DNA of 64,000 nucleotides from Acuticoccus yangtzensis (GTDB taxonomy: Bacteria > Pseudomonadota > Alphaproteobacteria > Rhizobiales > Amorphaceae): contig NZ_MJUX01000006.1 of assembly GCF_001927245.1 (NCBI RefSeq), forward strand, positions 186,001 to 250,000, written 5' to 3'. Position numbers and translations under genes: made by a program. This document shows, piece by piece, positions 29,913 through 60,924 of this stretch. Each line of letters opens with the position of its first letter. Position 1 is the stretch's first letter. Under the pieces are notes generated by a model. It was not told the origin of the DNA and did not search any database. It saw only the letters and a list, made by a program, of their open reading frames with translations.

Positions 29913-29940
29913 TCGGTCGGCGCGCCCTATCACAATCGTG

Positions 29941-44172: not shown

Positions 44173-47100
44173 TCAGAGGTAGGCCACCGCCACCACGGAG
44201 GTCTCGCCGAGGCCGAGGCACACCTCGACCTCCGACCCGTCAGGCGCGACGATCGCCGCCGCGCCCGCCTCGGGGTCGAGAAGGTGAAGCCCGAAGGCGG
44301 TGGGCTGGCCGTTCAGCCCCGTTCCGAGGCACTTGGCCGCGGCCTCCTTGGCGCACCACGCCTGCAGAACGTCCACCTCGCCGTGCGCACCGAGCTCGCT
44401 CATGTAGCGCCGCTCGGCGTCCGAGAAGCCGGCCGCCATGACGTCCGACGGCTCCACCCGGCCGAATACCTCGAGGTCGATCCCCACCGGCACCCCCGGA
44501 GGCGCGGCCACCGCGACCGTCTGCCCCGCGACATGGGCGACGGACACCTCGGGCACGGCGCCGAGGATGGCAAGGCCCTCCGCGTCCACGAAGGGTTTGC
44601 CGTGTGGGTCGACACGGATCACCACGTCCGCCGGCAGCACGGCCATGTTCATGTGGCGCATGTACCAGCCGCGCACCGCCTCCTTCAGCGCCACGCGGCC
44701 GAGCAACCACTCGTCCGCCCGCCGCGGCTTGCCGGCAAATTCGTGCCACTCCGCCCGCTCGTCCTTGGACAGCACCGTGTGGGCGAGGACGCGGCGCCAG
44801 ATGCCGCCCGCATCGTCGAGGAAGCCTTGGGGAAAGGCCGGGACCTCCCACACCAGGGCGTCCTCCGGCAGCGCGGCGAAGAGGTCCGACGCCTCGTGGC
44901 CGTAGAACTCGTCCCGTGGCTGCCAACGCGCACGGTAGTAGGTGTGCGGCACGTCGAAGAAGCGGTCGCGCCAGCCTCTGATCCTGAGGATCGGCGCCCC
45001 GTCCGCGGCGATGCAGACGAAGTCGCCGGTCAGGTAGTTGGTGCCGTCGCCCTCCTCGAAGCCGAGGCGGCCGGACATCAGCGCCCCCGCCGTGTCCTCG
45101 CGCCCGGCGTCGAACAGCTCGATGACGTCGATCCGCGAGGGGAAGGACGAGAAGTCGGTCCCCATCCCCTGCGCGATCCAGAAGGCGGTGACGTGGCCCA
45201 CCTGGTCGAGCAGCGCCGGGTTGAGGATGAATTGCGGCCGCGCGCCGGGGGTGAAGAAGCCGTCGAGCGGCGTGTCGGCCATGATCGCGTCGAGGCCCGT
45301 GTGGTCCCACGAGTGCAGGCTGGCGATGCCCTGGAAGAGCGGGCCGTGGAACATGCCGGTGCGGTAGAGGTCCTCGTCCCGCCAGACCGGCCATTGCGGC
45401 TCCTCCAGCGGGGTGACGGCGACGCCCTCCGGCACCGCGGGCGCGGCGGAGAGGACGACGTTGCCCTCCACCAGCGGACCGCCCGACTGGTCCACCACAC
45501 GCACCACGACGACGGCCTCGGTGCCGTGGCCGTTCTGCTGGTCCGACAGCCGCGTCGCCTCGATGCCGATGGTGCGCGCCCCCTCGTCCAGCGCCACCCA
45601 ATTGTAGGCGCGCACCTTCTCGAGCCGCACCGGCATCATGCCGCGGGTGAGCGCGGCGGCGGCCTCGGCCATCATCTCCATGGTGACGGCCATCGGCACC
45701 ACCGGCAGCGCGCACAGGTCACGGTCGATGTCCGACACCTCCATGGCGTAGAGCACGTGGTGGCGCAGGAAGGCGTCGCGGGTGAGGTCGAGGTCGCATT
45801 CGGCGACCAGGCGGCGCGCATCGTTGACCGACAGGCGCTGCAGGAAGGGATAGGCCCCCGCCGGAAGCGGCGCGCGGGACGGCGGCGCCTCGGCGGGCAC
45901 ATCCTCGTCCACGCTCTCGCTGACCGGGGCCGCGGCGACGCGCGGCGCACCGGCCGGGAACATCGCCGCGCGCAGCTCGGCGATCGCCTCGTCCGGCAGG
46001 CGCACGATGGGGAGCGTGTTCTGGATGATCTTCTCCGGCCGCCTCTTGCCGCGGTCGGTGGCGACGTCGGACGGGCCGAAGCGGCGCCCCTCGAACAGCG
46101 CGCCGACCTCGACGCCGACGCCCGACACCCACAGGCGCCCCAGCGAATGCATGAGCTGCACCAGCGAGGAGCGGCGGCGGCTGCCGAAGGCGACGGCGAG
46201 CACGTCCTTGCCCGTCAACGTGTTCTCGATGAACCCGGTCAGGTTGGCCGACGGGCCGAGCTCCACGAAGGTGCGCACGCCGTCGGCATACATCTGCTCA
46301 ACCGTCTCGGTGAAGCGGACCTTCGACTGCCACTGGAGCGCGGCCAGCGAGCGGATCTCCTCCGGCAGGTTCGGCATCGGCTCGGCGGAGGCGCAGGAAT
46401 AGACCGGCATCGACGGCGCGGCGAAGTCCAGCTTCTCGTAGATGCCGCGCACCATGTCGGCGACCGGAGCGAAGAGCGAGGTGTGGTAGGGCCGGTCGAA
46501 CGGCAGGAAGGCGCACAGGGCGGATTCCTTGCCCGCCTCCGCCACGATCTTGTCCAGCTCCTTGCGCTGGCCGTAGAGCACGGTCTGCTGCGGGCAGTTG
46601 TCGAGCGCGACGTGGACGTCGTCGGCCTCGCCCGCCAGAGCGTGCACCTTCTCGCGCGCCAGCCCGCCGATCGTCAGCAGCGCGCCACCGGCGATGGTGG
46701 TCGATTCCTCGATGGCCTTGTAGAGCGTGTTCAGCTCCAGGATACGGCTTTCCAGCTCGTCCCACCCTTCGGCGCCCAGCACACCGGCTTCATAGAGCGC
46801 GGCATGCTCGCCGGAGGAGTGCCCCACCACGCAGTCGGGCGAGAGGCCCAGCTTGGCGGCGACGGCGGACAAAGCGCGGCTGGCGATGAAGGCCGACTCA
46901 GACCCCATCTCCAGGCCGAAGAGCGCGCGGTCCAGCTCGTCCTTCGCGTCGGAGCCGACGAAGGTGGGCGGCGGGAAGACGGATTCGGACGGGCGGAAGC
47001 CGCGCGCGTCGCCATAAAGGCCGTCCCAGAAGTCGAACCAGCGGCGCGCTTCGGGGAAGGGGCCCATGATCTCGGCCAGCATGGACTGATATTGCGCACC

Positions 47101-48855
47101 CTCGCCGGGGAAGACGAAGGCGAGCTTGCCGGGCGTATCCCCGTCCGAGCCGTAGATGCCCGAGCGGACCTGGAAGCGGGTGCGCCCGCCCTCGATGCGT
47201 CCGCGCGCCTTGCCGAGACGGTCGGCCAGCTCAGCGGTGGAGGTGGCGACGATGGCGAGCCGCACCGGCCCCACCTTGGCGTAACGCTCTGCGCAGCCCT
47301 TGGCGATGCCGCCGAGGGGCTCACCGGCGAGCGGCCCGGTGACGGCCGCCGTCAGCTCGTCGATCCGCGCCAGGAGCTCGTCGCGCGTTTCGCCCGCAAG
47401 GATGACGAGTTCCACCGGCCAGAAGGTCGGCCGCGGCGGCTTCGCCTCGTTCTCGGGCGACTCTTCCAGGACGCAGTGCGAGTTGATACCGCCGAAGCCG
47501 AAGGCGTTGACGCCCGCCCGGCGCGGCTGGCGGCGCGACTGGATCCACGGCCGCATCTCGGTGTTCACGTAGAGCCGCGACTGCTCGATGCCGATGGAGC
47601 CGGACGGCTCGGGGCACAAGGTCGGCGGGATGGTGCGGTGGTAGAGGGCGAGCGTGGTCTTGATCATCGCCGCGATGCCCGCCGCGGGGATGCAGTGGCC
47701 GATCAGCGACTTCAGCGCTCCGAGTGCGATCTCCGGCACCTCGCGCCGCTTGGCGCCGAACACCTCGCGCAGCGCCGACACCTCTGTCTGATCGCCGAGC
47801 GGGATACCGGTGCCGTGCGCCTCGATCAACGTCACCGTGTCCGGCGACACGCCCGCGTCCTTGTAGGCTCTGCGGATGGCGGCGATCTCACCCTCCAGCC
47901 GCGGCGCCAGAAGGCCGGAGCCCTTGCCGTCCGACGACTGGCCGAGCCCCTTGATGACGGCGTAGACCGTGTCCCCGTCGCGCACCGCATCGTCGTAGCG
48001 CTTCAACACCACGGCGCCGACGCCTTCCGACAGCAGCGTCCCGTCCGCATCCTCGGAGAAGGGGGTGACGGACGAGGTCTTGGACAGGGCGTCGAGCTGG
48101 GTGAACACCATGTTCACCTCGGCCGGGATGGCGCCGTTGGCCCCGCCGGCGATCATCATGTCCGACCGCCCGGCGCGCAGCTCCTCCACCGCCGAAAGGA
48201 CGGCGAGCAGCGAGGACGAGCAGGCCGCGTCGAGGATGTAGTTCGGCCCGCGCAGGTCCAGCCTGTTGGCGATGCGCCCGGTCATCACGTTGGGGACGAG
48301 GCCCGGCGCGGTGTCGGCGTTGAACGGCGGCAGATGGTCGAGCAGAACGTCGCGCAGCTTGCCGAGCGCATCCTCCGGCACGTCCGGCAAGAGGGCGCGC
48401 ACCAGGTCGACGGTCTGGTCCAGCACCACGCCGTGCTGCACCACGTTGGCGTTGCCGCGGTGCAGGTAGGTGGAGTGGCCGAGGATGATGCCGGTCGTCT
48501 CGTGGTCGTAGCCGGTGAGGTAGCCGGCATCCTCCAGCGCGTCACGCGCCACCTTGAGGGCGAGGAACTGGTCCGGCTCCGACCCGTCGACCGAGTTCGG
48601 CATGATGCCGAGCGCGGCCGGGTTGACGCGGCAGAGGTCGCCCAGGAAGCCGCCCGCCGCGGAGGTGATGTGCGTGGTGGAGTCCGAGGAGAGGTAGCGG
48701 TCCGCCTCCCACTCGGCCACCGGCTGGCGGATCGCGACGTGCTTGTCGCAGATGTTCTTCCAGAACTGGGCCGGACCGTCGGCGCCCGGAAAGACGCAGC
48801 CCATGCCGATGATGGCAATATCTCGTGTGCGGTCAGCCTGGCCAGCGTCGGCCAT
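44173..48855 (-). CDS. Iterative lipid/polyketide synthase: KS-AT-DH-PPTase
   Basis: The 1560-residue protein contains four parts. A ketosynthase (about 8-465) has active Cys in DAACSSSLLAV near 212 and His motifs EAHGTGIPLGD near 345 and SLIGHCIPAAG. An acyltransferase (about 575-885) has VVGHSSGEHAALYEAGVL near 679 and an unusual RPYHTSLF where malonyl enzymes have HAFH. A double-hotdog dehydratase-like part (about 1030-1310) has LPVVPMAVTMEMMAEAA and NPALLDQVGHV. A C-terminal 4'-phosphopantetheinyl transferase (about 1340-1560) has GIDLE near 1458 and WCAKEAAAKCLG near 1500. It thus corresponds to parts of PfaB, PfaC and PfaE in one chain, but has no ACP or chain-length-factor KS. It lies 39 bases after the larger synthase; GGAGAG precedes its ATG. 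Confidence 0.9.
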   Translation of the reverse strand: MADAGQADRTRDIAIIGMGCVFPGADGPAQFWKNICDKHVAIRQPVAEWEADRYLSSDSTTHITSAAGGFLGDLCRVNPAALGIMPNSVDGSEPDQFLALKVARDALEDAGYLTGYDHETTGIILGHSTYLHRGNANVVQHGVVLDQTVDLVRALLPDVPEDALGKLRDVLLDHLPPFNADTAPGLVPNVMTGRIANRLDLRGPNYILDAACSSSLLAVLSAVEELRAGRSDMMIAGGANGAIPAEVNMVFTQLDALSKTSSVTPFSEDADGTLLSEGVGAVVLKRYDDAVRDGDTVYAVIKGLGQSSDGKGSGLLAPRLEGEIAAIRRAYKDAGVSPDTVTLIEAHGTGIPLGDQTEVSALREVFGAKRREVPEIALGALKSLIGHCIPAAGIAAMIKTTLALYHRTIPPTLCPEPSGSIGIEQSRLYVNTEMRPWIQSRRQPRRAGVNAFGFGGINSHCVLEESPENEAKPPRPTFWPVELVILAGETRDELLARIDELTAAVTGPLAGEPLGGIAKGCAERYAKVGPVRLAIVATSTAELADRLGKARGRIEGGRTRFQVRSGIYGSDGDTPGKLAFVFPGEGAQYQSMLAEIMGPFPEARRWFDFWDGLYGDARGFRPSESVFPPPTFVGSDAKDELDRALFGLEMGSESAFIASRALSAVAAKLGLSPDCVVGHSSGEHAALYEAGVLGAEGWDELESRILELNTLYKAIEESTTIAGGALLTIGGLAREKVHALAGEADDVHVALDNCPQQTVLYGQRKELDKIVAEAGKESALCAFLPFDRPYHTSLFAPVADMVRGIYEKLDFAAPSMPVYSCASAEPMPNLPEEIRSLAALQWQSKVRFTETVEQMYADGVRTFVELGPSANLTGFIENTLTGKDVLAVAFGSRRRSSLVQLMHSLGRLWVSGVGVEVGALFEGRRFGPSDVATDRGKRRPEKIIQNTLPIVRLPDEAIAELRAAMFPAGAPRVAAAPVSESVDEDVPAEAPPSRAPLPAGAYPFLQRLSVNDARRLVAECDLDLTRDAFLRHHVLYAMEVSDIDRDLCALPVVPMAVTMEMMAEAAAALTRGMMPVRLEKVRAYNWVALDEGARTIGIEATRLSDQQNGHGTEAVVVVRVVDQSGGPLVEGNVVLSAAPAVPEGVAVTPLEEPQWPVWRDEDLYRTGMFHGPLFQGIASLHSWDHTGLDAIMADTPLDGFFTPGARPQFILNPALLDQVGHVTAFWIAQGMGTDFSSFPSRIDVIELFDAGREDTAGALMSGRLGFEEGDGTNYLTGDFVCIAADGAPILRIRGWRDRFFDVPHTYYRARWQPRDEFYGHEASDLFAALPEDALVWEVPAFPQGFLDDAGGIWRRVLAHTVLSKDERAEWHEFAGKPRRADEWLLGRVALKEAVRGWYMRHMNMAVLPADVVIRVDPHGKPFVDAEGLAILGAVPEVSVAHVAGQTVAVAAPPGVPVGIDLEVFGRVEPSDVMAAGFSDAERRYMSELGAHGEVDVLQAWCAKEAAAKCLGTGLNGQPTAFGLHLLDPEAGAAAIVAPDGSEVEVCLGLGETSVVAVAYL

Positions 48856-48894
48856 CGTACTCTCCGATGTCGCTCAGGGTGTTGAGGCGCGGGG

Positions 48895-51800
48895 TCAGAC
48901 CCGCACCTCGCCGTCGTAGCCGCGGAAGCGGTTGAGGGCTTCGCTGGAGGTGGACTCCAGCTCGTCGATCACCATCACCGTGCGCCCGTCCGCGTCGAGG
49001 ATGAAGACCTCGCTGGAGAGGGCCGGCGCCTCCACATCCTGGCGGACGTGAAGCACCATCCGTGCCGGAGCACCCGCCCCGGCGAAGCGGCGCACGGGGC
49101 CGATGCGGTTGGGCAGTGCCGGCGCGCCGCGGTGGGCGATGGACCACACCCACGCGAGTTGCGCCGCGGTGTCGATCAGCGAGGGATCGAACAGCCAGGC
49201 GGCGCCCGGTGCACAGATGGCGACGAACTGGTCACCCGGCCCGCGCGAGACGATGTCGGCGACGATGCCGGTCTCGTCCATGCCCACCAGCGCCGTCATG
49301 GCCTGGAAGCAGGGGCCGTGGAACAGCATCTCGCGATAGACCTGATGCGCCGTGATGGTGGCGGAGCGCGGGTCGATGGGGAGGTCCATCACCTCCGCCT
49401 CGGGGAGCCGGTCGGCGAGCTTCAGCGCGGCACTATAGTGCAGCGCGCCCTTCTCACCGGCGGACTTGATGCGCACCGCTGCGTTGAAGCCGGAGGCGTC
49501 GCCATGCTCGGAGGCGAGCACGGTGATCTCCACCGGGGCGGGCTTGTCGCCTTCCAGGCGCAGGCCCTTCAGCGCCCGCACGTCGCTGACTTCGACGATC
49601 TCCCAGCCGGGGAAGACCATCGCCCCCGCTTCGGCCGCCATCTCCAGCCCGCAGGCGGCGGGAAGGACGGGCGCGCCGTCGATCCTGTGCTGGTCCAGAT
49701 AGAGGTCGTGCGCCAGCGACAGGGTGCGCGTCAAAAGGCGTCCGCCGCGCGCGCCCTCGGTGTTGGTGACGCCCGGCAGCATCGGCAGCGCGGACGCGTC
49801 GCCTTTGCCGACGACCTCCGCCGCCACGGCCGAGGCGAGCAGCGCCGACTGGTCGGTCTCGTGCTTCTCCCACGGCCCCTCGCCGAAGACGACCTCGACC
49901 ATGTCGGTCGGCGCCTTCAGGATCTCGTCGCGGCAGGCCTCGGCGCCGCCGGCGGGCTCCACCAGGATGACGCCCTTGCCCTCAAACTTGCGGCGCGTCT
50001 CGTCCGACACCATGCCGGGGCCGTGGCGCGTGCCCGCCCAGGGACCCCAGTTGGCCACCGCCACCTTCACCGTGTCCGGCCACAGAGCGCGGAACTGCAG
50101 GCCGAGCCGGTTCAAAAGCTCGTTGGCGGCGGAATAGTCGGACTGGCCGGCATTGCCGTAGCGTCCGGCGACGGACCCGAACATGACGAAGAATTTCAGG
50201 CTTTTGGGGTCGATCGCGCGGGCCATGGCGAGAGCGCCGAGGATCTTCGTCTCGACCACGCGCAGCCAGCTCTCGGCGTCCTTCTCCACCAGCAGCCGGT
50301 CCTCGATCACACCGGCGCCGTGGATGATGCCGTCGACCCGGCCGAGGTCGCGGTAGAGGTCTTTCACCATGCGCGTCAGGGCTTTGGGGTCCTGCGCATC
50401 GGCGATGCGGTATTCGATCGTCACCCCCGCCGCCTTGAACTCGGCGAGGTTGGAGAGGATCTCGCGGTCGCGCAGGATGGCGCGCGCCTGGCGCTCCACC
50501 AAGGCGGGCTTCAGCGGTTCCTTCTTGGCCTTCGCGTCGGCGATGATGGCGCCGCGCAGGTCCGCCAGCGTCTTGGCCGCGGGGAAGCGATCCGCGTCCT
50601 GCGTCGGCAGCGGCGAGCGGCCGACGATGACGAAGGTCACCCCGTCCTTGGCGATGGCGTGCAGCGCCTCGGCGGTGATGCCGCGCGCCCCGCCTGTGGC
50701 GACGACGACGGCGCCTTTGGGAAGCGCGTCGCGGTCCGCGACGTCCGGCACGTCCTGCGCGACGGAGCGGAAGATGGTGCGGGTGCCTTCGGGATAGCCC
50801 ACCTCGATGCGCCCGCCCGGCAGGCGAAGCTCCTCGAAGACGATGCGGGCCGACAGCTCCTTGGCGGCCTTCGGGTCGAGGTCGATCGCCTTGGTGGCGG
50901 CGTTCGGCCACTCCTCCTTGGCGCTCTTGGCAAGGCCGGTGCCGCCGCCCGACAGGCGCAACGCCGTCGCCGCCAGATCGCGCCCGAAGCGCCCGCCGAG
51001 GCCGGAGACCAGCACCACACGCCCGCCGTCCGCCAGCGAGGCGCCGAACTTGCGCAGCGTCTGGTGCGGGAAGAGCTCGTTGCGCAGAAGCTCGTTGCGC
51101 CATTGGGACGGGTCGCTGTCCGCCTCGAGCCGCGCTGCGGAGAGCGGAGCGAGGTGGACGAAGCCGACCACCGGGGCGGCCGGATCCGGCGTCAACGCCT
51201 CCAGTGCCTTGAGGTCGGGCTGGATGAGGCGCGCGGTTCCGCCCGCCTCCTCGATGAGGGCGGCAACCTTGCGGGCGACCCCGCCGCCTGCGTCCTCGGA
51301 GATGAGGTAGGTCCCCTTCGGCAGCGCATAGGCCGCCGAGGGGCCGATCGGTTCAGCAAATTCCATGATGACATACCGAGACGGACGGGCGGATGCCGGG
51401 GCCGCCACAGGGGTAGAGGGCTTGTCCGCCTCGGTTAAATCAAAAGGGGCTGTGGCTCCTTGGGCGCCCGCACCGATGCGATCGGCGAGGGTGTCCAGAA
51501 TGCCGTTGAGGGTCTTCTGCGCGTTGAGCGCCTCACCGAGGTCGGCGACGTTCGGCTGAACGCCCGCGGGCAGACCCTTCAGAAGCGCGCCGACGATCTC
51601 GACCCGCTTGATAGAGTCGATGCCGAGGTCGGCCTCGAGGTTCTGGTCCATGTCGAGCATGTCGCGCGGGTAACCGGTGCGATCCTCGACCACGGTGAGC
51701 AGGATCTCGGAGATCTGCGCGCGGCCGAGATTGTCGCTGGCCGCGGGGGCGGCGGCAGCGGCAGGCGCAGCGACCGGGGCTGCGGGCGCCGGAGCGGCCG

Positions 51801-54800
51801 CAACGGCGGCGGGCGCCGGACGAGGCGCTTCGGCGACACCGGCGCCGTTGGCCGCGCCATTGGCATAGGCCGCGCCGTTGCCGTTCGCATAATGGCCGTT
51901 GCCGTTGGCGTAGTGGCCGTTGCCGTTCATGACGGGCGCCGGGGCCTCCGCGGCGGGAGCCGGAGCCGCGATGCGGGTCGCCGGACGGGCGCCGCCTTGC
52001 GGGCGGGCCGGCAGACGGGCCGGTTCGCGGGCCATTTCGCGGGACGGGCGCGCGGGGAGCGCGGCCGGCTGCTGCGTCATGGATGCGGCCACGTCGGCAC
52101 CGCCGAGATAAGCCAGCATCACGCCTTCCTGGACATCCAGGAAGCGTTGCATCGTCGCCTGGAATTCGGCGAGCGACGCGTCGTGCGCGGTCGTTCGCGT
52201 CGGATCAACCATTCGAGCTCTCTCCTTATTCAAGATGCCTCTACGAGCCGCCCTGGGGGCCGCGGCCCTGGCCGTCATCGTGCGATTCTCCTGGGGTTGG
52301 CCGCTGTCAGGCCGCGCCGCCCCCGCCGTTTCTGCCGAGCCGTTGAGCCCGTTATGTGCCGGAGCATCCGCCCCGTTCGTCGCGGGGTCATGGGCCCCGT
52401 TCGTCGTCGCGGCGGCCGGTTGGCCCGCCGCAAGGTCGGATGCCGGTGCCGCGGCACCCTGGTGACGCGCCGCCACCATCGCCTCGGCTTCTTCCAGCGT
52501 GAGGACCGGCAGCGGCGGGGTGCCGTAGGGGCGCGCGCCGGAGCCGTTCAACAGCCACATGTGCTTCGCCGGCGCCTTGGTGCGGGCGATCGGCTTCATG
52601 TCCATGGCGAGCGGGCGGCAGTCGCGCCCGGCCCACAGCCGCTCGAGGTCGACGGCGACACCTTCCGCCATCAAGGCACCGACCGCGCGAAGGAGGCCGT
52701 CGAGCGTACCCTCGCCGCTGTCCAGCGTCACCGAGCGGTGCGGCCGGTCGCCCAGCACCTTCTTGACCATGTTGGCGTGCGCAGGCTTCGGCCCGACCGA
52801 GAGGAAGATGCGCGCACCCGCCTCGTACATCGCCTCGATCTCGGCCACGAACTCGACCGCCGAGGAGAGATGGATGCCCATCGCTTCGGCGATGGTCGCG
52901 GGGTCCGCGTCGTGCGGTTTGCCGGTGCGGTTGGAGTAGACCGGGAAGGCCGGCGCGGCGAGCGGCATCGCGCCGATGTGCTGCGCGAGACGCGCCCCCG
53001 CCTTCGCGATGATCGGCGAGTGGAAGGCCGCGCCCACCGGGATCTTCTGCGCCTGCAGGCCCGCCTTCTCCATCGCCGCCAGCGCCGCATCGATGCCCGC
53101 CTTGGAGCCGGACAGCACGGTCTGGTCCGGCGCGTTGTGGTTGGCGATCCACACGTCCGCGACGCCCTTCAGCGCGGCGGCGACGTCGGGCTTGTCGGCC
53201 CGCACGGCGGCCATGGTGCCGAGGTCGCCGCCTTCGCCGGCCTCGATCATCAGCCGCCCGCGCATCTCCGACACGTCGAGGAGTTGGGCAAGATCGAACA
53301 CGCCCGCCGCATAGAGCGCGACGAACTCGCCGTAGGAGTGACCGGCGGCCATGTCGGCACAGATGCCGAGCGCCTTCATGAGGTTGAGAAGCCCCGCCTC
53401 GACCGCGCCCAGCGCTGGCTGGGCGATGTCGGTGCGGGTCAGGCGCGCCATGGCGGCCTTGCGGGTCTCGTCGTCGTAGGTGGCGCGGGCGAAGACGGTG
53501 CGGCTGAGCCGTCCGCCGGGGACGCCCTTGGCCTCCATCGCCTCGGCCAGCACCGTGTCGGCCTTTTCCAGCCCCGCGCGCGTCTCCTCGAAGAGCAGCG
53601 CCAGCTCGCGGAACATGCCGACATATTGGCTGCCCTGGCCGGGGAAGACGAAGGCGGTCTTGCCGCCGTCCGCCAGCGGCGCCTCGGAGAAGGACGCGGC
53701 CGGGGCGAGCGGGCCGCCGGACGCCAGCGCCTCGGCGAGCGCGGCGATGGCGGCATGGGGATCGGCGCGGCCGTCCACCACCAGCGTTGCGGTGACGCCC
53801 TTGGCGGGGAGCTTGCGGGCGAGCGTCACGGCGAGATCGCGCACCAAGGGCGCGTTGCCGAAGATGCGGTCCGCGGTCTGCTTCACGCTGGCGGCCAAGG
53901 CGGCCCGGTCCGGCGCGCGCCAGACGAGCAGCTCGTGGCTCCACGTCTCGCGCGGTGCGGGCGCCGGAGCGAGGCTGTCATATTCCTCCACGGTGACGTG
54001 GAAGTTGGTGCCGCCGAAGCCGAAGGCCGACACGCCCGCGCGGCGCGTCTCCCCCTCGCGCACCAGCCAGGGGAGCGCGTCGTCGACGATGTAGAGCGGC
54101 GCGTCCTCGGCGGTCAGCGTCGGGTTCGGCTTGTCGAGATAGCCGTGGGGCGGCAGCGTCTTGTGGTAACAGGCGAGCGTCGCCTTCATCAGCCCGGCGA
54201 TGCCCGCCGCGGCCTTCGTGTGGCCGATCAGCGCCTTCACCGAGCCGATCGCATGCTCACCCTGCGGCGATCCGCCGACCTCGTCGATGGCGCGGCTCAC
54301 GGTGGTCAGCTCGGCGGTGTCGCCGGCGACGGTGCCGGTGCCGTGCGCCTCGAACAGGCCCACGGTCTGCGGCGAGTAGCCGGCCATGTCGTAAGCACGG
54401 CGCAGCGCGCGGATCTGCCCGTCCGGGTGCGGCGCGGTCATCGACTTGGCGCGCCCGTCCGACGAGCCGGCGACGCCTTTGATCACGCCATAGATGCGGT
54501 CGCCGTCACGCTCGGCGTCGGCAAGGCGCTTCATGGCGACAATGGCGATGCCCTCGGAGATCGCGATGCCGTCGGCACCGGAGTCGAAGGTGCGGCAGCG
54601 ACCACGCGGCGAGAGCGCCTGCGTCTTGGAGAAGCAGAGATAGCCGAACGGGCCCTGCACGGTGTCGACACCGCCGGCGATCACGCAGTCGGAGCGCCCG
54701 GTCTCCAGCTCGAGGACGCCTTGATAGACGGCGGTCAGCGAGGAGGCGCAGGCCGCGTCCACGGTGTAGTTGACGCCGCCGAAGTCGAGCCGGTTGGCCG

Positions 54801-57363
54801 ACCGCCCGGCGGCGACGTTCAGCAGGATCCCGGCGAAGGAGTCCTCGGTCCAGGTCGGCAGGCGGTCGGCAGCGGCGGGTTCCAATTCGCCCAGGAAGCG
54901 CGGCATTTCGGACCGCACGGCGTATTGCGCGCCGACGTCACCCGCACCGCCCGAAGCGCCGAGGATGATCGACATCTTCTCGCGGCTGTCCGGCGCCTTC
55001 TCGATGCCGGCATCCGCCAGGCACCGGCGCACCAGCTCCAACGTCATGAGCTGCAGCGGGTCGACCGACTTGATGGCTTTCGGCGGCATGCCGAAGTCGA
55101 ACGGGTCGAACAGGAGATCGGCCGAGAAACCGCCCCAGCGCGAATAGATCTTGTCCGGCGCGTTCCGGTCCTCGTCGAAATAGATGCGCCAGTCCCACCG
55201 CGTCTCGGGGATCTCGGAGACGGCGTTGACCTTGTCGACGATGTTTTCCCAGTAGGCTTGCAGCGTCTCCGCCCCCGGCAGCGAGGCGGCCATACCGACG
55301 ATGGCGATGTCGGTCTGGTGGCTGCGTCCCTTGCGGGCGGCGGTCAGGGCCGCGTCGTCGGCGTCGAGCTTGCGGGCGGAAAGCAGCGCCTGCCCACCGG
55401 CGGAAATCTCGTCGTGCAGCTCGGCCACGGTGGTGATCGCGTCGCGGATCGTCGCGACCTGGCCGATCATGTACATGCCCTCGGTCTGCTGGCGCTCCAG
55501 CGGGACGGGCTGCACGTCGCCGTTCGGCCCGCCGCGCTCGGTGCCCTTGGAGGCGAGGCGCAGACGGCCGAGGGACAGGGCCTCCAGCTCCTCGCGCGCG
55601 TCGTCGGCGGACACGTCGCTGGTGGCAAGCTCCAGGCGGCGGCGCTCGAACTCGTCGGTGAAGGGGGATTCCGCGGCGCGCGAGGCGTGGCCGGGGCCGG
55701 TCTCCAGCGTGTGGGTGACGGTGCAGGCGATCGCGGTCTTCTGGAACTCGTCGACGATCGCCTCGGAGGCGACGATTTCCTTGGTGAAGAGGTAGGCCGT
55801 GCCGACGAGGACGCCGACCTTGAACCCCGCCTTGGCGAGCGGGGCGGCGATGGCCGACACCACCGCGGCCGAGTGCGCATCGTGGATGCCGCCCGCGAAG
55901 AGGACGTGGATCTCGGCGTTCTTCTCGGGGCTCTTGGCGTTGGCGAGCAAGGTCGTCACCATCGCGTCCCACAGGACGAAGGACGACAGCGGGCCGACAT
56001 GGCCGCCGCACTCGCGCCCTTCCAGCACGAACTTCTTGGCGCCCTGTTCGATGAACATCGTGAGAAGGCGCGGCGATGGCACGTGGAGGTAGGTGGCGAT
56101 ACCGTCGTCCTCGAACGCCTTCGCCTGGTCCGGACGGCCGCCGGCGATGAGCGCGAACTTCGGCCCGTAGCGGCGCGCGACCTCCACCTGGGCGGCGACG
56201 AGATCGGCGGGCGCGAAGCCGAGGAGGCCGAGGCCCCAGGGCTTGCCGGCGAGGCGCTCGGCGGACTCCTTCAACAGCGCCTCCGTCGGGCCGGGGCGCA
56301 TCAGGGCGAGGGCGAGCATCGGCAGCCCCCCACCCTCGCCGACGGCTTGGGCGAAGGCGGCGGAGTCGGACACGCGCGTCATCGGCCCCTGGACGATGGG
56401 GTAGTCGGTGCCGTGGGTGGCGGCGACGCCCTTGCCCTTGCCGAGAACGTCCATCTCCACCGCGAGGGCGAGGCGGGCTTCGCTTTCGGCGAGCATGGCG
56501 GCGGCGAGGCGCCCGAAGGTGCCGTAGGTTTCGGCGAACGGCGCGGCGAAGGCGGCGGCCTGGCCGAGCGGCACGATATCGCTCATCGGGTCCGCCCAGC
56601 CGAGGCGGGCGGCCACGGCGGCTTCGGCGACGTCCGCCGGGGCGGGGCGGATCTCGCCGCGCAGGGTGCGCAGGTGGCGGAAGGACGGCTTCTCGAACAC
56701 GCGCCAGGTCTTCGTTCCGGCGACGATGCGACCGGTTTCGAGCCCGGTGAGGTCCTTGAGCGCCGCGCGGGCCTTCTCGGTCAGCGGGGATTCGGCGAGC
56801 AGCAGGAGCTGATCGTCCAGCACCACGCCGGAGGCGCCCGCGGCACGGCAGGCGGCGGCGGAGTGCATCCCTATGCCGCCGCGCACGAGGACCGGTGCGG
56901 ACTGCCGGGCGACCGCCTTCTGCAGCAGTATGAAGGCGGTCTCTTCGCCGATCTCACCGCCGCATTCGTGGCCCTTCACCATCAGGGCTTCGTGGCCGGA
57001 CAGCGTGGCGAGGCGCGGATCCCACGCCATCGCCTCGACGATGACCTTCACACCGACGGCCGAAAATTTTTCGATGACGGCCGGGAACTCCAGCGCGTCG
57101 GCGGCGTTGATGATCACCCACCCCACGCCGTCGGCTACATGGCGGGCGACGATTTCGACGACAGAGTCATCGGCCTTGGCAAGCTTGACGCCGAAGGGAG
57201 AACGCGTGCGTCCGGCAAGGGTCGCAATCGCATCGTGCGGGAACGCGCCGATTTCGGCGTTGAGGATGCCGAGATGGCCTGCGCGGTCGGCTGCGAAGAC
57301 GAGGCGCGGGTCGGCGAGACCGGCGGGCGTCAGCGCAAGGATGCGGAAATCGTCGGCCGTCAT
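48895..57363 (-). CDS. Pfa/Hgl-type multidomain lipid synthase: ER(x2)-KS-AT-ACP-KR-DH
   Basis: The 2822-residue protein begins with two tandem nitronate-monooxygenase-like TIM-barrel parts of the PfaD enoyl-reductase type (about 5-240 and 310-590). The second keeps ECGGHVGP (about 451); the first has ECGGEIGE, with Glu for the catalytic His. Next come a ketosynthase (about 680-1125; Cys near 871 in DAACASSLTAV, EAHGTGT, GHTKAAAG) and an acyltransferase (about 1236-1540; AGHSYGEFVALY, GAAFHSP). A low-complexity linker rich in Asn-Gly follows (1600-1880). A single ACP has LGIDSIKRVEI (Ser near 1914). A ketoreductase has TGGARGIT near 2220 and GQSDYSAANE near 2407. A C-terminal dehydratase has DQHRIDGAPVLPAA and FDPSLIDTAAQLA. 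GGGAG precedes ATG 57363. Product unknown. Confidence 0.92.
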   Translation of the reverse strand: MTADDFRILALTPAGLADPRLVFAADRAGHLGILNAEIGAFPHDAIATLAGRTRSPFGVKLAKADDSVVEIVARHVADGVGWVIINAADALEFPAVIEKFSAVGVKVIVEAMAWDPRLATLSGHEALMVKGHECGGEIGEETAFILLQKAVARQSAPVLVRGGIGMHSAAACRAAGASGVVLDDQLLLLAESPLTEKARAALKDLTGLETGRIVAGTKTWRVFEKPSFRHLRTLRGEIRPAPADVAEAAVAARLGWADPMSDIVPLGQAAAFAAPFAETYGTFGRLAAAMLAESEARLALAVEMDVLGKGKGVAATHGTDYPIVQGPMTRVSDSAAFAQAVGEGGGLPMLALALMRPGPTEALLKESAERLAGKPWGLGLLGFAPADLVAAQVEVARRYGPKFALIAGGRPDQAKAFEDDGIATYLHVPSPRLLTMFIEQGAKKFVLEGRECGGHVGPLSSFVLWDAMVTTLLANAKSPEKNAEIHVLFAGGIHDAHSAAVVSAIAAPLAKAGFKVGVLVGTAYLFTKEIVASEAIVDEFQKTAIACTVTHTLETGPGHASRAAESPFTDEFERRRLELATSDVSADDAREELEALSLGRLRLASKGTERGGPNGDVQPVPLERQQTEGMYMIGQVATIRDAITTVAELHDEISAGGQALLSARKLDADDAALTAARKGRSHQTDIAIVGMAASLPGAETLQAYWENIVDKVNAVSEIPETRWDWRIYFDEDRNAPDKIYSRWGGFSADLLFDPFDFGMPPKAIKSVDPLQLMTLELVRRCLADAGIEKAPDSREKMSIILGASGGAGDVGAQYAVRSEMPRFLGELEPAAADRLPTWTEDSFAGILLNVAAGRSANRLDFGGVNYTVDAACASSLTAVYQGVLELETGRSDCVIAGGVDTVQGPFGYLCFSKTQALSPRGRCRTFDSGADGIAISEGIAIVAMKRLADAERDGDRIYGVIKGVAGSSDGRAKSMTAPHPDGQIRALRRAYDMAGYSPQTVGLFEAHGTGTVAGDTAELTTVSRAIDEVGGSPQGEHAIGSVKALIGHTKAAAGIAGLMKATLACYHKTLPPHGYLDKPNPTLTAEDAPLYIVDDALPWLVREGETRRAGVSAFGFGGTNFHVTVEEYDSLAPAPAPRETWSHELLVWRAPDRAALAASVKQTADRIFGNAPLVRDLAVTLARKLPAKGVTATLVVDGRADPHAAIAALAEALASGGPLAPAASFSEAPLADGGKTAFVFPGQGSQYVGMFRELALLFEETRAGLEKADTVLAEAMEAKGVPGGRLSRTVFARATYDDETRKAAMARLTRTDIAQPALGAVEAGLLNLMKALGICADMAAGHSYGEFVALYAAGVFDLAQLLDVSEMRGRLMIEAGEGGDLGTMAAVRADKPDVAAALKGVADVWIANHNAPDQTVLSGSKAGIDAALAAMEKAGLQAQKIPVGAAFHSPIIAKAGARLAQHIGAMPLAAPAFPVYSNRTGKPHDADPATIAEAMGIHLSSAVEFVAEIEAMYEAGARIFLSVGPKPAHANMVKKVLGDRPHRSVTLDSGEGTLDGLLRAVGALMAEGVAVDLERLWAGRDCRPLAMDMKPIARTKAPAKHMWLLNGSGARPYGTPPLPVLTLEEAEAMVAARHQGAAAPASDLAAGQPAAATTNGAHDPATNGADAPAHNGLNGSAETAGAARPDSGQPQENRTMTARAAAPRAARRGILNKERARMVDPTRTTAHDASLAEFQATMQRFLDVQEGVMLAYLGGADVAASMTQQPAALPARPSREMAREPARLPARPQGGARPATRIAAPAPAAEAPAPVMNGNGHYANGNGHYANGNGAAYANGAANGAGVAEAPRPAPAAVAAAPAPAAPVAAPAAAAAPAASDNLGRAQISEILLTVVEDRTGYPRDMLDMDQNLEADLGIDSIKRVEIVGALLKGLPAGVQPNVADLGEALNAQKTLNGILDTLADRIGAGAQGATAPFDLTEADKPSTPVAAPASARPSRYVIMEFAEPIGPSAAYALPKGTYLISEDAGGGVARKVAALIEEAGGTARLIQPDLKALEALTPDPAAPVVGFVHLAPLSAARLEADSDPSQWRNELLRNELFPHQTLRKFGASLADGGRVVLVSGLGGRFGRDLAATALRLSGGGTGLAKSAKEEWPNAATKAIDLDPKAAKELSARIVFEELRLPGGRIEVGYPEGTRTIFRSVAQDVPDVADRDALPKGAVVVATGGARGITAEALHAIAKDGVTFVIVGRSPLPTQDADRFPAAKTLADLRGAIIADAKAKKEPLKPALVERQARAILRDREILSNLAEFKAAGVTIEYRIADAQDPKALTRMVKDLYRDLGRVDGIIHGAGVIEDRLLVEKDAESWLRVVETKILGALAMARAIDPKSLKFFVMFGSVAGRYGNAGQSDYSAANELLNRLGLQFRALWPDTVKVAVANWGPWAGTRHGPGMVSDETRRKFEGKGVILVEPAGGAEACRDEILKAPTDMVEVVFGEGPWEKHETDQSALLASAVAAEVVGKGDASALPMLPGVTNTEGARGGRLLTRTLSLAHDLYLDQHRIDGAPVLPAACGLEMAAEAGAMVFPGWEIVEVSDVRALKGLRLEGDKPAPVEITVLASEHGDASGFNAAVRIKSAGEKGALHYSAALKLADRLPEAEVMDLPIDPRSATITAHQVYREMLFHGPCFQAMTALVGMDETGIVADIVSRGPGDQFVAICAPGAAWLFDPSLIDTAAQLAWVWSIAHRGAPALPNRIGPVRRFAGAGAPARMVLHVRQDVEAPALSSEVFILDADGRTVMVIDELESTSSEALNRFRGYDGEVRV

Positions 57364-57421
57364 AGATGCACTCCCAGTCGGTCGAGAAGATTCGCGTGTC
57401 ACCCGGTCTCACCCAATACTG

Positions 57422-58117
57422 TTACGAAACGTCGTCGCTCGGTGTGTCCGCGCCGGAGGCCGGCGGGGTGGTGGTTGCACGAAGCGCGCCGCGTAACTCG
57501 GCCACGTCGGCTTCGAGTTTTGCGACCCGTTCTTCCAAGACGCGGTCCCGGTCCGCCCGCGCCTGACGCGCACGGGCAGCGAGCGGCCCGTCGCCCTTTC
57601 CGGCCAATCCCTGCCCTGCGGCGAGGCCCTGCCCTGCGGCAAGTCCCTGCCCGACCAGAGGCGCCGCGGCCGGAGCGGCTCCGTCTGTCGCGCCCTGGGC
57701 CTGCCGCGCCTCCATGATGCGCCGCAGGAGCTGGCCGCGCTGCGGGCCGCCGCCGGCTCCGCCCGCCCCCTGAGATTGGGGCACCGATTGAGCGGCGGAA
57801 TTGTTCTGCATCACACGTCGGAGCAATTCGCCGCGACCGCCGCCTTGCCCGCCCGCGCGTGCGCCGAGACCGCCGCCCGCTCCGGGGCCGGAACCTCCAG
57901 CGAGGGCGCCACCGGCTCCGAGAGCGCCGCCGGCACCGAGAGCGCCCTGGCCCCTGCGGCGCTGGATCAACTCCCGCAGCGCGCCGCCTTGCGGGGCACC
58001 GGCCGTTCGCGCCGCGGGAGTGGCCCCGTCGCCTTGAACCGCGGCACCCGCCTGGCCGCGCTTCTCACGCAGGTTCCGCAACCGCTCGCGGCGTTTGTCG
58101 GCATCCGTGTCGCTCAT
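57422..58117 (-). CDS. Gly/Ala-rich protein with repeated LLRR motifs and a C-terminal coiled coil
   Basis: I do not recognise this 231-residue protein. It starts with a basic segment (KRRERLRNLREKRGQ), then shows three spaced amphipathic motifs (GALRELIQRRRGQ, GRGELLRRVMQNN, QRGQLLRRIMEARQ) separated by Gly/Ala-rich stretches. A short array of GQGLAA repeats follows, and a predicted coiled coil (DRDRVLEERVAKLEADVAELRGAL) ends it. There is no signal peptide or membrane helix. It lies between the sulfatase-fold enzyme and the large synthase, 58 bases before the latter, so it is likely part of the lipid-synthase operon; a scaffold or docking role is only a guess. Confidence 0.72.
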   Translation of the reverse strand: MSDTDADKRRERLRNLREKRGQAGAAVQGDGATPAARTAGAPQGGALRELIQRRRGQGALGAGGALGAGGALAGGSGPGAGGGLGARAGGQGGGRGELLRRVMQNNSAAQSVPQSQGAGGAGGGPQRGQLLRRIMEARQAQGATDGAAPAAAPLVGQGLAAGQGLAAGQGLAGKGDGPLAARARQARADRDRVLEERVAKLEADVAELRGALRATTTPPASGADTPSDDVS

Positions 58118-58174
58118 GGTTCGCCCCTCGCCTTCCGTCACAGCCCTACAGACTTTCGCCCCACCCTGAACAAC

Positions 58175-58996
58175 TTAGGGTCGTTTGCCTTCCAAAAATG
58201 GCACAGTGAAGGCAATTTCATGCATGACAGGACCGTGCCCGAAGTAGCCGCCTTCGCCAAACGCTTCGCCATGGTCACCCACAATCACGAAGTAGGTGTC
58301 TTCAGGCGCCTTCTCGAGCAGTTCGCCGAACAGACCATCGACATACTCGACGCAGCGGACCTGCTGATCATGAAGCGACTTCATCATAGCATCATCGAAG
58401 AATTCATCATCGACCTTCCCGCCGCCGTCGCCGCCTTTGGCGAGGGATTTCACGGCGCCGTGGACGCCTGAAATGTGCGGCAAGTTCTCGCCCGAAAGCA
58501 TATAAGGGTAGTGAGTCTCGCCGAGGTTCAGGAAGTAGTAGGTCGGCTTCTCGGCAGAGAAGGTCATTTCCTTCACCATGCCCGCGAAGTCGTTATGGTT
58601 CGACATCAACTTATAGTCATCGAAAAATTTGTTAATAAGTGTAAAGCCGTTCAGAACCGGCATCGAGACCCGGCCGACCGTTTTGTAGCCATGGTCGCGC
58701 AACAGCTTCGGCAGTGAGAGTTCCGGGATGAAGTTCTTGAACCCGAGGTCCGGAATACCGAGTCGCTCGACCCAGGCGCCGAAGTCTTCTTTGTAGACTT
58801 CGGACGCATACACACCCTGCGGGCTGCGATGGGGGACGAGACCCATCGTGAAGGTGTAATGGGACGGCGCGGTCCACGAGGCGTAAGAAAACCGCTTCTC
58901 CGCCGTGCCGAGACGGTCGAAGTTCGGCGTCTTTGCCCGCATGAAGCTGTCATACCGGCAGCTGTCGAGGACCATGAAAACGAGATTACGCGGCAT
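58175..58996 (-). CDS. Soluble sulfatase/alkaline-phosphatase-superfamily enzyme
   Basis: The 273-residue protein has the metal-dependent hydrolase core of the sulfatase superfamily in compact form. Asp11 in FMVLDSCRYDSF, Thr42 in YASWTAPSHYTFTMGL at the nucleophile position, and Asp241, His242 and His254 in VGDHGEAFGEGGYFGHG would hold the metals. It lacks the C-x-P-x-R formylglycine motif, so it is not a classical sulfatase; phosphodiesterase or phosphotransferase chemistry is as likely. No signal peptide or membrane helix is present, so it should be cytoplasmic. Its ATG is two bases after the TPR gene stop. The G+C content is visibly lower than in its neighbours. Confidence 0.85.
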   Translation of the reverse strand: MPRNLVFMVLDSCRYDSFMRAKTPNFDRLGTAEKRFSYASWTAPSHYTFTMGLVPHRSPQGVYASEVYKEDFGAWVERLGIPDLGFKNFIPELSLPKLLRDHGYKTVGRVSMPVLNGFTLINKFFDDYKLMSNHNDFAGMVKEMTFSAEKPTYYFLNLGETHYPYMLSGENLPHISGVHGAVKSLAKGGDGGGKVDDEFFDDAMMKSLHDQQVRCVEYVDGLFGELLEKAPEDTYFVIVGDHGEAFGEGGYFGHGPVMHEIAFTVPFLEGKRP

Positions 58997-58998: not shown

Positions 58999-60141
58999 TT
59001 AAGCACCTGTCGCTTGGAAGGAGCGGAGGTTACGGTTGCGGCGGAAGCCCCCGAAGCGTCGCTCGGTCGTCCCGGATTCGCGCTGCGTCTCCGCTAAGTT
59101 GGCAAGATAGTCTTTGACCTTCAAAGCTTTCGCCTTGGGGTCGCCGGGCTCGTCGATCATCCCGGGCAGATCGGGATGCTTGGCCACGAACTCGGGCGAG
59201 CCGACGAGCGCGGCCCGGTATTCTTCGAGCGCCTGCTCGGGACGCTCCATCGCCACATAGACATCGCCCATGCGCTTGTGGATCGGACCGGTCTGCCGCG
59301 CACCGCGCAACGCCCCGCGCAAGGTCTTCAGCGCGTCGTCGTGACGGCCGAGATCGACCATGCACTCCGCCGCACCGAGCGCGAAGGGCTGCGACTTCGG
59401 GTTCAGCTCCATCGCCGCCTCGAAGGCATCGAGTGCCGCCTCGGCCTTGCCTTGCGCGCGCAGCACGAAGCCGAGCGTGGCATAGGGCGTCGGCCGGTCG
59501 TCCGCCTGCTCGATCGCGGTGAAGAGAAGCTCCTCCGCCTCGGCGTAGTTCTTGTCGCGAATGTGAAGCATGGCGAGGCGATAGGCGGCCATCCCCATCT
59601 GCGGATTGACCTCGAGGATGCGCTTCAGCTCCTCCTTCGCCCCGGCGATATCGCCCGACTTTTCGAGGTTTCCGGCCAGCATGAACCGCGCCGCCAACTG
59701 CTGCGGATTGCGCTTCAACGCCTCGCGCAGCCGGGTCGACGCCTCGTCCAGATCACCTTCTTTGGCGAAGATGCGGCTCATGCGGATCTGCGACGAGCCG
59801 CGCGCCGGGTCGAGCTGACCAACCTCCTCATAATCCTCCAGCGCGCCGTCGATGTCGCCGAGCTTCTCGCGTGCACGGGCGCTCATGTTGAGCGCCATCG
59901 CCGACTGCGGGTCGATCTCCAGTGCATCCTGGAAATATTTCAGCGCCGTCTCGGGATCGCCTTCCTGCATGTGCACCTGGCCGAGACCGATATAGCCGAG
60001 CGTCACGTCGGGGTGCGCTTCGACCATTGCCACGAACGCATCGCGCGCGGCGTCGAGCTGGCCATCCTTCAAGAATTGCATCGCCGTTTGAACATCGCGA
60101 CGCAGCTTGAGCTTGGTCCGGGTGTCCATGGTCTCTTTCAT
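58999..60141 (-). CDS. Tetratricopeptide repeat protein
   Basis: The 380-residue protein consists of about eight TPR units between residues 10 and 315, for example DAARDAFVAMVEAHPDVTL and ETALKYFQDALEIDPQSAMA, which form a protein-binding superhelix. The C-terminal 65 residues are non-repetitive and basic (RRFGGFRRNRNLRSFQ). There is no signal peptide. The ATG at 60141 gives MKETMDTRTKLKLRRD; one at 60129 is also possible. It is the first gene of the five-gene minus-strand operon with the sulfatase-fold enzyme and the two lipid synthases, and may hold the enzymes together. Confidence 0.88.
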   Translation of the reverse strand: MKETMDTRTKLKLRRDVQTAMQFLKDGQLDAARDAFVAMVEAHPDVTLGYIGLGQVHMQEGDPETALKYFQDALEIDPQSAMALNMSARAREKLGDIDGALEDYEEVGQLDPARGSSQIRMSRIFAKEGDLDEASTRLREALKRNPQQLAARFMLAGNLEKSGDIAGAKEELKRILEVNPQMGMAAYRLAMLHIRDKNYAEAEELLFTAIEQADDRPTPYATLGFVLRAQGKAEAALDAFEAAMELNPKSQPFALGAAECMVDLGRHDDALKTLRGALRGARQTGPIHKRMGDVYVAMERPEQALEEYRAALVGSPEFVAKHPDLPGMIDEPGDPKAKALKVKDYLANLAETQRESGTTERRFGGFRRNRNLRSFQATGA

Positions 60142-60924
60142 CGCGAATGTCCCTGATGACCCGCACCGCCGAGGAGCGGGCGCTCGCAGCCTGTTCCAAG
60201 ATGATGGCAAATGTTGCGCGCCGCGTCGGCACACGTTTCAGTGCGGTAAACGTCAAGCGCGGCCTGAAATTCCGCAGAACATCCCCCGCGCGCATTCATC
60301 CGCGCCGCCTCCCCGCTCGCTCCGCGGGGCCGGTGCATTCCGCTGTCGGAATGCCCTGGGGTGGGGTCATATGGGTCCATGCAACCCCGCGCTATACCGG
60401 GGCGCCTTACACAATTCGCAAACCATAAAGACTTACGCGCGAAACTCACAGTTGACATACACCGGCCCGGGCAAAGCCCGGACAACGCCGAACAAAAGGC
60501 ACCAAATTAACCTTAACCCGTGGCCCCCGTGTCCACCGGCCGCCATGCTTCTGTCGCCATGCACTAATTCCGACCACTGTCTATAAAGTTCGCTGCAGAT
60601 AAGCGCAACCGTTAGCCTCGGCCTGCGTGGGCCCGCCCCATCACTTCGCGAGGGGGCCGGATGCACCATTTCGTGATCGTCTCCGCAGCGCTTTGATCGC
60701 ACGTTTCCCGCATCTCCTGCCCCATTGGGAAGCCGACGCCCCCTTAGAGGCAAGTTCGCGGCCAACGCCCTTTTTGCCCGTAAAGGGCATCACAAATGCC
60801 CCTTCCGCGACCCGCTCAAGGCGCTCGAAAGGCCCTTCGGAGGGCGTTCGGCCGGCCAACTATCAGCTCGGCTTGTCAGTGCCGTGACGGGTCCGCCCAG
60901 GCGGCACGCGCACGGCTGCAATGC
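60142..60924. other. 783-bp spacer with operon promoter region, no gene supported
   Basis: This spacer lies between the TPR-led operon and the end of the TRAP operon. The part 60410-60520 is relatively AT-rich and likely holds the promoter of the five-gene operon; TTGCGA and TATAGC on the minus strand are weak candidates. A CCGGGC/GCCCGG hairpin with an AAA loop lies at 60468-60482 and a GCCCTTT/AAAGGGC hairpin at 60767-60788. A 72-codon minus-strand frame at 60641-60859 resembles nothing known and lacks a ribosome site. Confidence 0.4.

Follow-up and report, generated by a model that had tools for sequence, protein, structure and literature searches.

A two-chain secondary-lipid synthase of Acuticoccus yangtzensis and the partner genes that accompany its branch across phyla

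A stretch of 64,000 nucleotides from Acuticoccus yangtzensis (contig NZ_MJUX01000006.1, positions 186,001 to 250,000; here called the window) encodes on its reverse strand two long, adjacent proteins with the make-up of a secondary-lipid synthase related to the Pfa and Hgl systems (Table 1). An initial annotation, made from the sequence alone, described them as one chain with two enoyl reductase (ER)-like domains followed by ketosynthase (KS), acyltransferase (AT), acyl carrier protein (ACP), ketoreductase (KR) and dehydratase (DH) domains, and a second chain with the order KS-AT-DH-phosphopantetheinyl transferase (PPTase), lying 39 bases apart. This description is confirmed by the open reading frames, Pfam, NCBIfam and structure profiles. 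Synthases of the same branch are accompanied in other genomes by a conserved set of partner genes, which marks the branch across phyla and looks to be the new part of this work.

Pfam finds KS, AT, ACP, KR and DH in chain 1 and KS, AT, DH and ACPS in chain 2, and the motifs of the KS, AT, ACP, KR, DH and PPTase domains stand at the expected places. Residues 1–690 of chain 1 have no Pfam match. The NCBIfam FabK model (TIGR03151) matches this N-terminal region, best over residues 331–671, and a profile of the ER region matches solved FabK-type proteins twice, at positions 30–289 (5gvh, 5gvj) and 323–618 (9pl0), which supports the presence of two separate ER-like domains. The histidine missing from ER1 is absent in all seven aligned sequences, the window included. 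We take this histidine to be catalytic in FabK, and ER1 is probably a non-catalytic partner of ER2.

Two start codons are available for chain 1, an ATG at 57363 (2822 aa) and a GTG upstream at 57402 (2835 aa). The GTG is the more likely one, since counterparts of the 13 additional residues can be made out in the two same-genus orthologs. Of the seven same-genus genomes searched, two encode full-length orthologs of both chains (77–84% identity), so that a chance reading frame can be dismissed; both frames are also gene-like by codon-position GC.

Table 1. Features of the synthase locus and of the genes adjoining it, in window coordinates.
Feature	Position	Strand	Remarks
Synthase chain 1, ER1-ER2-KS-AT-ACP-KR-DH	48895..57402	-	2835 aa (2822 from internal ATG at 57363)
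ER1, FabK/PfaD-like	56503..57345	-	GGEIG replaces GGHVG (conserved His lost); profile, alignment, motif
ER2, FabK/PfaD-like	55483..56445	-	GGHVG, conserved His kept; NCBIfam, profile, motif
KS1	53866..55314	-	Cys-His-His motifs; Pfam, motif, trees
AT1	52756..53652	-	GHSYGE; Pfam, motif
ACP, single	51538..51705	-	LGIDSIK; Pfam, motif
KR	50035..50709	-	Pfam, motif
DH1	48934..49764	-	Pfam, motif
Synthase chain 2, KS-AT-DH-PPTase	44173..48855	-	1560 aa; 39 bases downstream of chain 1
KS2	47350..48825	-	Cys-His-His motifs, not a chain-length factor; Pfam, motif, trees
AT2	46210..47118	-	GHSSGE; Pfam, motif
DH2	44926..45828	-	Pfam PS-DH covers residues 1163-1296 only; wider bounds from our own profile seed
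PPTase domain	44275..44490	-	Pfam; P1a HGKP and P1b' VSVAH stand shortly before the Pfam match
Ala/Gly-rich open reading frame between sulfatase-like gene and chain 1	57422..58141	-	Same site, weakly conserved, in both same-genus loci
Alkaline-phosphatase-superfamily 'sulfatase-like' protein	58175..58996	-	Thr at nucleophile position (WTAPSH); conserved synthase partner
TPR-repeat protein	58999..60234	-	Conserved partner, mainly in alphaproteobacterial relatives

The KS domains were placed in two trees, a quick one of 158 rows and a careful one of 69 rows, which give the same picture. References were picked by architecture, some of them from Fischerella and Singulisphaera genomes, and eight rows were of modular type. 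In the 69-row tree the clades of ER-linked KS1, KS2, PfaA KS and modular polyketide synthase (PKS) domains have supports of 100/98, 100/99, 100/99 and 100/100 respectively, and the PfaC-type KS, chain-length factor (CLF) and modular PKS rows are separate from the KS1, KS2 and PfaA clades. In the 158-row tree KS1 and the PfaA-type rows are sister groups. KS1 and KS2 of the window lie deep within their respective clades, nearest to same-genus rows and next to Bosea and Rhodobacteraceae. The position of KS1 beside the PfaA-type domains, with KS2 in a clade of its own, supports the initial annotation as a Pfa/Hgl-like system. A modular PKS origin, which the initial annotation had named as an outcome that would overturn it, is ruled out, since both window domains stand apart from the modular rows in both trees. 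Likewise KS2 is not a CLF, because it has the Cys-His-His motifs and groups apart from the CLF rows; the absence of a CLF noted at the outset therefore stands. In the larger tree three loci (L053, L057, L129; L, G and C numbers are our labels for loci, genomes and contigs) were partly replaced by longer stretches of the same genomes, and short KS pieces were left out. Two of its rows are oddly placed: L062, labelled KS2, sits on a long branch away from the KS2 clade, and L127, labelled as the KS of a KS-CLF pair, falls within that clade.

Other features of the class are also present. In the sense of secondary-lipid synthase given in the available text of PMC3098273, the proximal KS is PfaA-related and not modular, and Pfam finds at least one KS together with an ACP and a KR. 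Tandem ACPs are usual in the class, though not required, and here there is a single PP-binding match. The same available text defines the PPTase motif P1a as x(G/D)xP and gives Types M–T a P1b' motif, hShxH, without P0; chain 2 has HGKP at residue 1418 (P1a) and VSVAH at 1437 (P1b'), and no hRxhLS was seen by eye in its C-terminal region. The NCBIfam PfaA cut-off of 1010.1 bits is exceeded by chain 1 (1021.5 bits) but not by chain 2 (516.1 bits).

The architecture itself is ordinary for the group. On plasmids, tblastn detected related clusters in Beijerinckia, Methylosinus, Streptomyces and one Rhodobacteraceae strain, and most of chain 1 can be aligned with their ER-KS-AT-ACP-KR chains. When named genomes were scanned with the ER region, at least 549 relatives came up, and the best 80 of these were fetched; domains and partners were called using home-made profiles with our own thresholds. 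The ER pair is fused to the KS in all 80, a figure that is partly a product of the search, because the relatives were sought with the ER region. Sixty of the chains are complete, and 33 of these have the order ER-ER-KS-AT-ACP(n)-KR-DH found in the window. In 28 of the 33 there follows a KS-AT or KS-AT-DH chain that runs past the fetched stretch; longer stretches show the full KS-AT-DH-PPTase partner chain in Bosea sp. 117, Alexandriicola marinus and Pseudomonas alcaligenes. Fused pfaDA, pfaBC without a CLF, and pfaBC with a PPTase are also on record and likened to Renibacterium, in the part of PMC13291983 available. The fused PfaD-like and PfaE-like activities and the missing CLF, which the initial annotation had singled out, are therefore already known and common, and the domain order is not unusual.

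Variants of the arrangement were seen in several relatives. In two cyanobacteria, Fischerella muscicola (L068/L222) and Synechococcus sp. Tobar12-5m-g (L071/L223), chain 1 is split into ER-ER-KS-AT-ACP-ACP and KR-DH and much of the gene set is kept. In Fischerella the gene set coexists with separate PfaA-like clusters, presumed to be Hgl; two PfaA-like KS rows of this genus, tentatively taken as Hgl-like, cluster with PfaA rather than with the window. In Rhodobacteraceae strain SC52 (L036) and in G354 (L049–L050) the related chains are separated by other DNA and no full KS was called in the second chain; the intervening DNA of SC52 encodes a TauD-like dioxygenase and a methyltransferase. The same-genus genome G003 has a further large PKS region, apparently modular (C1:4718000-4757999; L051, L052).

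The flanks of the relatives contain sulfotransferases, CysD, CysNC, an HlyD adaptor, and a protein of 460–550 residues without a Pfam family above cut-off, which is predicted to be a β-propeller (pTM 0.81, mean pLDDT 72.7, from a three-row alignment), with Kelch-like propellers among the best fold matches of the model. Bosea sp. 117, Roseivivax, Frigidibacter, two Pseudomonas and Fischerella are among the genomes in which homologs of the partners are encoded close to the synthase. The neighbourhoods of 23 genomes were tallied, covering part of the branch (L055, L056, L058, L059, L076, L079 and L089 have no downstream stretch and are omitted). A free ACP is present in 21, a type I phosphodiesterase-like protein in 21, an alpha/beta hydrolase in 20, the HlyD protein in 20, and the propeller in 23, this last by construction, because most downstream regions were chosen by the presence of the propeller. 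Less constant are a sulfotransferase (15), a PHB-esterase-like protein (15), the sulfatase-like protein (14), a short-chain dehydrogenase/reductase (SDR; 9) and the TPR protein (8). CysNC occurs in five (in Fischerella as a short piece) and CysD in four; in those four the two occur together, as a sulfate-activation pair. A type III PKS is found in none. Thirty control loci, from 29 genomes and with shorter downstream DNA, gave ACP 9, hydrolase 7, type III PKS 5, HlyD 2, SDR 2, phosphodiesterase 1, TPR 1, sulfotransferase 0 and propeller 0, although four of them (L036, L049, L050, L126) are in, or tied to, the 47-row clade described next. No paper on this partner set was among the listed results of literature searches in open-licence PMC papers.

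A fairer test than the neighbourhood tally is a search for the propeller in whole genomes or records with an ER-KS synthase, covering 37 of the 80 named loci and 3 plasmid records. The propeller is present in 30 of these 40. In the 158-row tree KS1 of the window sits in a clade of 47 rows together with Rhodobacteraceae, L088, L036 and G354; 26 of the 40 records have their KS1 in this clade, and 25 of the 26 have a strong propeller match (best E 9e-213 to 1e-153). The other 14 comprise one strong match, in Brocadia, four weak ones (3e-43 to 6e-82) and nine without a match, which include holders of ars-type synthases and of which two are plasmid records only. Among 385 sampled genomes of the window's class the propeller profile (E up to 1e-20) found one, the source genome itself, with only a few candidates scored per genome. 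The class was taken to be Alphaproteobacteria from the DnaK of the window, whose 12 best matches in a plasmid collection all come from that class (up to 83% identity). Of ten genomes searched in the family, three have the synthase, and precisely these three have the propeller and likewise the phosphodiesterase. The two proteins provide marker genes for the pathway, even where its genes are scattered.

Such scattering is seen in the source genome. A profile scan of the window found no partner genes other than those for the sulfatase-like and TPR proteins. Elsewhere in the genome, contig C12 (L195) encodes a propeller, a sulfotransferase, the PHB-esterase-like protein and a second sulfotransferase; contig C28 (L204) a second propeller and an HlyD protein; and contig C22 (L210) an ACP, two SDRs, the alpha/beta hydrolase and the phosphodiesterase. 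In G003 and G005 the sets of C28 and C22 are one locus, hence three loci per genome. In G003 all three are on a single contig of 5.1 Mb, near 1.09, 1.87 and 2.94 Mb, and are therefore truly apart. Two propeller paralogs are found in the source genome, G003, G005, Roseivivax and Frigidibacter, one beside the sulfotransferases and the other beside HlyD or the ACP-SDR-hydrolase genes. In the source genome, Roseivivax and Frigidibacter the genes for propeller, sulfotransferases and esterase are grouped in a single block, and in Bosea they flank the synthase on both sides. The initial annotation considered the two chains self-sufficient. This now appears doubtful, given that most of the 23 genomes examined have a free ACP and an alpha/beta hydrolase in the synthase neighbourhood, and that the source genome has them on other contigs.

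Both sulfotransferases at L195 match, among solved structures and at E<0.01, only 4gbm (CurM) and 4gox, a polyketide synthase entry which we take to be the Ols sulfotransferase. A single control was taken from the same genome, a Sulfotransfer_3 protein unrelated to these two; its 183-residue matched stretch finds tyrosylprotein sulfotransferases and neither of the above entries. The linked enzymes are therefore placed with the polyketide-chain sulfotransferases. Polyketide sulfotransferases act on polyketide acyl chains.

On the basis of this gene content we propose the following route. The terminal PPTase of chain 2 would charge the ACPs and the AT domains would load malonyl units, KS1 and KS2 would elongate the acyl chain, and KR, DH and ER2 would carry out reduction, with ER1 as a probably non-catalytic partner. 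The synthase would form stage one of a multi-gene pathway, encoded in one region in many relatives and scattered in the window's genus. The acyl chain would be handed to the free ACP and then trimmed by the two SDR reductases; a hydroxyl group would be sulfated by one or two of the polyketide-type sulfotransferases; and the product would be released by the alpha/beta hydrolase and exported through the HlyD-type adaptor system. The product would accordingly be a long-chain acyl compound, either sulfated or sulfate-activated. That a two-chain iterative synthase feeds tailoring, sulfation, release and export in this way, and yields a sulfated long-chain lipid, is in our judgement somewhat probable. 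We put forward more tentatively, and stop short of calling probable, the wider proposal that a single phylum-spanning pathway (two-chain synthase, ACP, type I phosphodiesterase-like protein, hydrolase, propeller, HlyD and sulfotransferases) makes and exports such a lipid in Alpha-, Beta- and Gammaproteobacteria, Cyanobacteria, a Desulfobulbaceae metagenome-assembled genome (MAG) and a Brocadia MAG, and that in the window's genus it is complete although spread over three or four loci.

Several observations weigh against these proposals. Of the partners, just two, the sulfatase-like and TPR genes, adjoin the synthase in the window; the others would have to act in trans, their link to it being inferred. 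The 23-genome set is biased, most of its 17 downstream regions having been picked where the propeller was already known. A sulfotransferase is found in only 15 of the 23 neighbourhoods, so that sulfation is not universal in the branch. The three positive genomes of the family may be one clade, in which case the pattern of 3/3 against 0/7 may reflect a single event. SC52 belongs to the 47-row clade and has no propeller in its plasmid record, the only one searched; G354, another member, also lacks it, provided that the 385-genome sample included this genome, as its listing suggests; and the propeller is missing from Brocadia MAG L079, while the Brocadia outside the clade has it. The free ACP falls under the Pfam PP-binding cut-off (17.6 and 18.8 against 20.8 bits), and the M50-like part of the HlyD adaptor depends on one weak family match, that of the Bosea protein.

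The likeness of the sulfotransferases to CurM and 4gox also suits a different outcome, in which sulfation only activates a beta-hydroxyacyl-ACP and the alpha/beta hydrolase hydrolyses and decarboxylates it, giving a long-chain terminal olefin without sulfate, in the manner of Ols and curacin biosynthesis (a summary of the curacin mechanism is given in the available text of PMC3908369). The near-constant presence of the free ACP and the hydrolase fits this as well. However, both are kept where no sulfotransferase is found nearby, and the alphaproteobacterial relatives have two sulfotransferases together with export-type genes. Moreover, the best 60 of the 103 PDB matches of the G003 hydrolase are esterases, epoxide hydrolases and similar proteins, and no CurM or Ols thioesterase is named among them. 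We regard the olefin as unlikely. Alternatively, the synthase may make a plain secondary lipid destined for the envelope, a very-long-chain acid or alcohol that is saturated or only lightly unsaturated, with the sulfotransferases and esterase belonging to a separate pathway and the common partners serving only in loading, release and export. This agrees with the eight of 23 neighbourhoods that have no sulfotransferase, with the occurrence of ACP and hydrolase without sulfotransferase in Streptomyces (L034) and at four Planctomycetota loci (L087, L105, L107, L111), and with L116, which likewise lacks a sulfotransferase and has the phosphodiesterase as well; in addition, ArsA, of the phenolic-lipid type, yields plain C23–C25 fatty acids according to the available text of PMC4824345. 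Against it stand the polyketide lineage of the linked sulfotransferases, which the control protein does not share, the linkage of CysD and CysNC in four genomes, and the propeller-sulfotransferase-esterase grouping seen as a block in three genomes and on both synthase flanks in Bosea.

A phenolic-lipid (ars-type) synthase, feeding a type III PKS, would account for the collinearity of chain 1 with the ArsA-like chain of Beijerinckia (38% identity over 2044 aa) and for the DH-PPTase pair that ends chain 2, as in the ArsD-like gene. On the other hand, the five ars-type chains form a separate subclade in the 158-row tree, and a profile made from two Beijerinckia enzymes finds no type III PKS in any of the 23 neighbourhoods, the window and the three partner loci included. 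A genome-wide search of the source genome with PF00195 also gave no match. This model is a poor probe for ars-type enzymes, because the two Beijerinckia type III PKSs (L032) match Chal_sti_synt_C and miss PF00195, which is the N-terminal model. In view of the weakness of this genome-wide search, we rate the phenolic lipid as highly improbable and the plain lipid as quite unlikely.

One of the closest described systems is Type M of Shulse and Allen, known from Frankia, Streptomyces and Renibacterium. The plasmid of Streptomyces sp. NBC_01243, used here as a stand-in for Type M by our own reading and not from a tree with Type M rows, has an ER-ER-KS-AT-ACP-KR chain and a KS-AT-DH-PPTase chain, followed by a free ACP and an alpha/beta hydrolase. 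The window differs in the additional C-terminal DH of chain 1. The propeller, phosphodiesterase, HlyD and sulfotransferase were not found at the NBC_01243 locus, and the plasmid, the only record searched, has no propeller; its KS rows are in other subclades than the window, in a 158-row tree that lacks a type-defining Type M reference. Type P, represented by ArsA and ArsD of Azotobacter and Beijerinckia (the latter classed as Type P in the available text of PMC3098273), shares the fused ER-ER-KS-AT-ACP-KR chain and a DH-PPTase protein. It differs in having type III PKS genes between its two synthase genes, an ArsD-like chain without KS-AT, and a place in another subclade. The PPTase motifs of the window are those of Types M–T, which include Type O. 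A possible likeness to Type O (Dinoroseobacter, Parvularcula, Gloeobacter) lies in the membership of the 47-row clade, which has Rhodobacteraceae and L088, an Anthocerotibacteraceae cyanobacterium that we take to be a relative of Gloeobacter; L088, L036 and G354 serve here as the nearest stand-ins for Type O.

The canonical PfaABCDE system has the same kinds of domains, and its likeness to the window extends to the sister relationship of the PfaA KS and KS1 clades and to the PfaA score of chain 1. In contrast to it, the window has no KS-CLF pair (PfaC), only one ACP, and fused ER and PPTase domains. The CurM and Ols sulfotransferases, the sole solved-structure matches of the two linked enzymes at E<0.01, are PKS domains, whereas those of the window's genome are stand-alone proteins linked to a secondary-lipid synthase. 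The swf clusters of sponge symbionts combine a type I fatty acid synthase/PKS with a sulfotransferase, and an alkyl sulfate product has been suggested for them (PMC3908369, available text). They have one KS-AT-DH-ER-KR-ACP chain and a reductase-sulfotransferase fusion, and not a two-chain ER-ER-KS system.

PfaA-like clusters are present in very many genomes, and clusters of this kind with unknown products have been recorded since 2011 (PMC3098273, available text). It is plausible that the present locus, as the initial annotation suggested, makes an undescribed lipid. The fixed partner set of one large branch narrows the chemistry to an alkyl sulfate, a terminal alkene or a plain very-long-chain lipid. 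Should the sulfated lipid prove correct, widespread bacteria, among them named strains of Pseudomonas, Roseivivax and Solimonas, would have an envelope lipid or exported lipid that has so far gone unrecognised.

The two genes adjoining chain 1 on its upstream side, for the sulfatase-like and TPR proteins, are kept beside the synthase in relatives. A formylglycine-sulfatase reading of the former is rejected, because threonine occupies the nucleophile position (in 11 of 11 aligned sequences) and phosphoethanolamine transferases are found, together with sulfatases, among the fold neighbours of its model (mean pLDDT 68.1). This threonine is presumably the catalytic nucleophile, and a role of the protein in head-group transfer is possible. 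The Ala/Gly-rich open reading frame between this gene and chain 1 is only 36–40% identical in the two same-genus loci, far below its neighbours.

Further out, a DUF475/TerC-type membrane protein and a GT61 glycosyltransferase (41680–44112) are encoded convergently with chain 2, and have no homologs in the same-genus stretches compared. Genes for a TRAP-type transporter (60983–63529) adjoin the TPR gene, and the large permease is kept in the same-genus loci (84–87%). At 15712–33162 lie dnaX, an AAA_2-type ATPase, dnaJ and dnaK, and these housekeeping surroundings place the synthase in a core chromosomal region.

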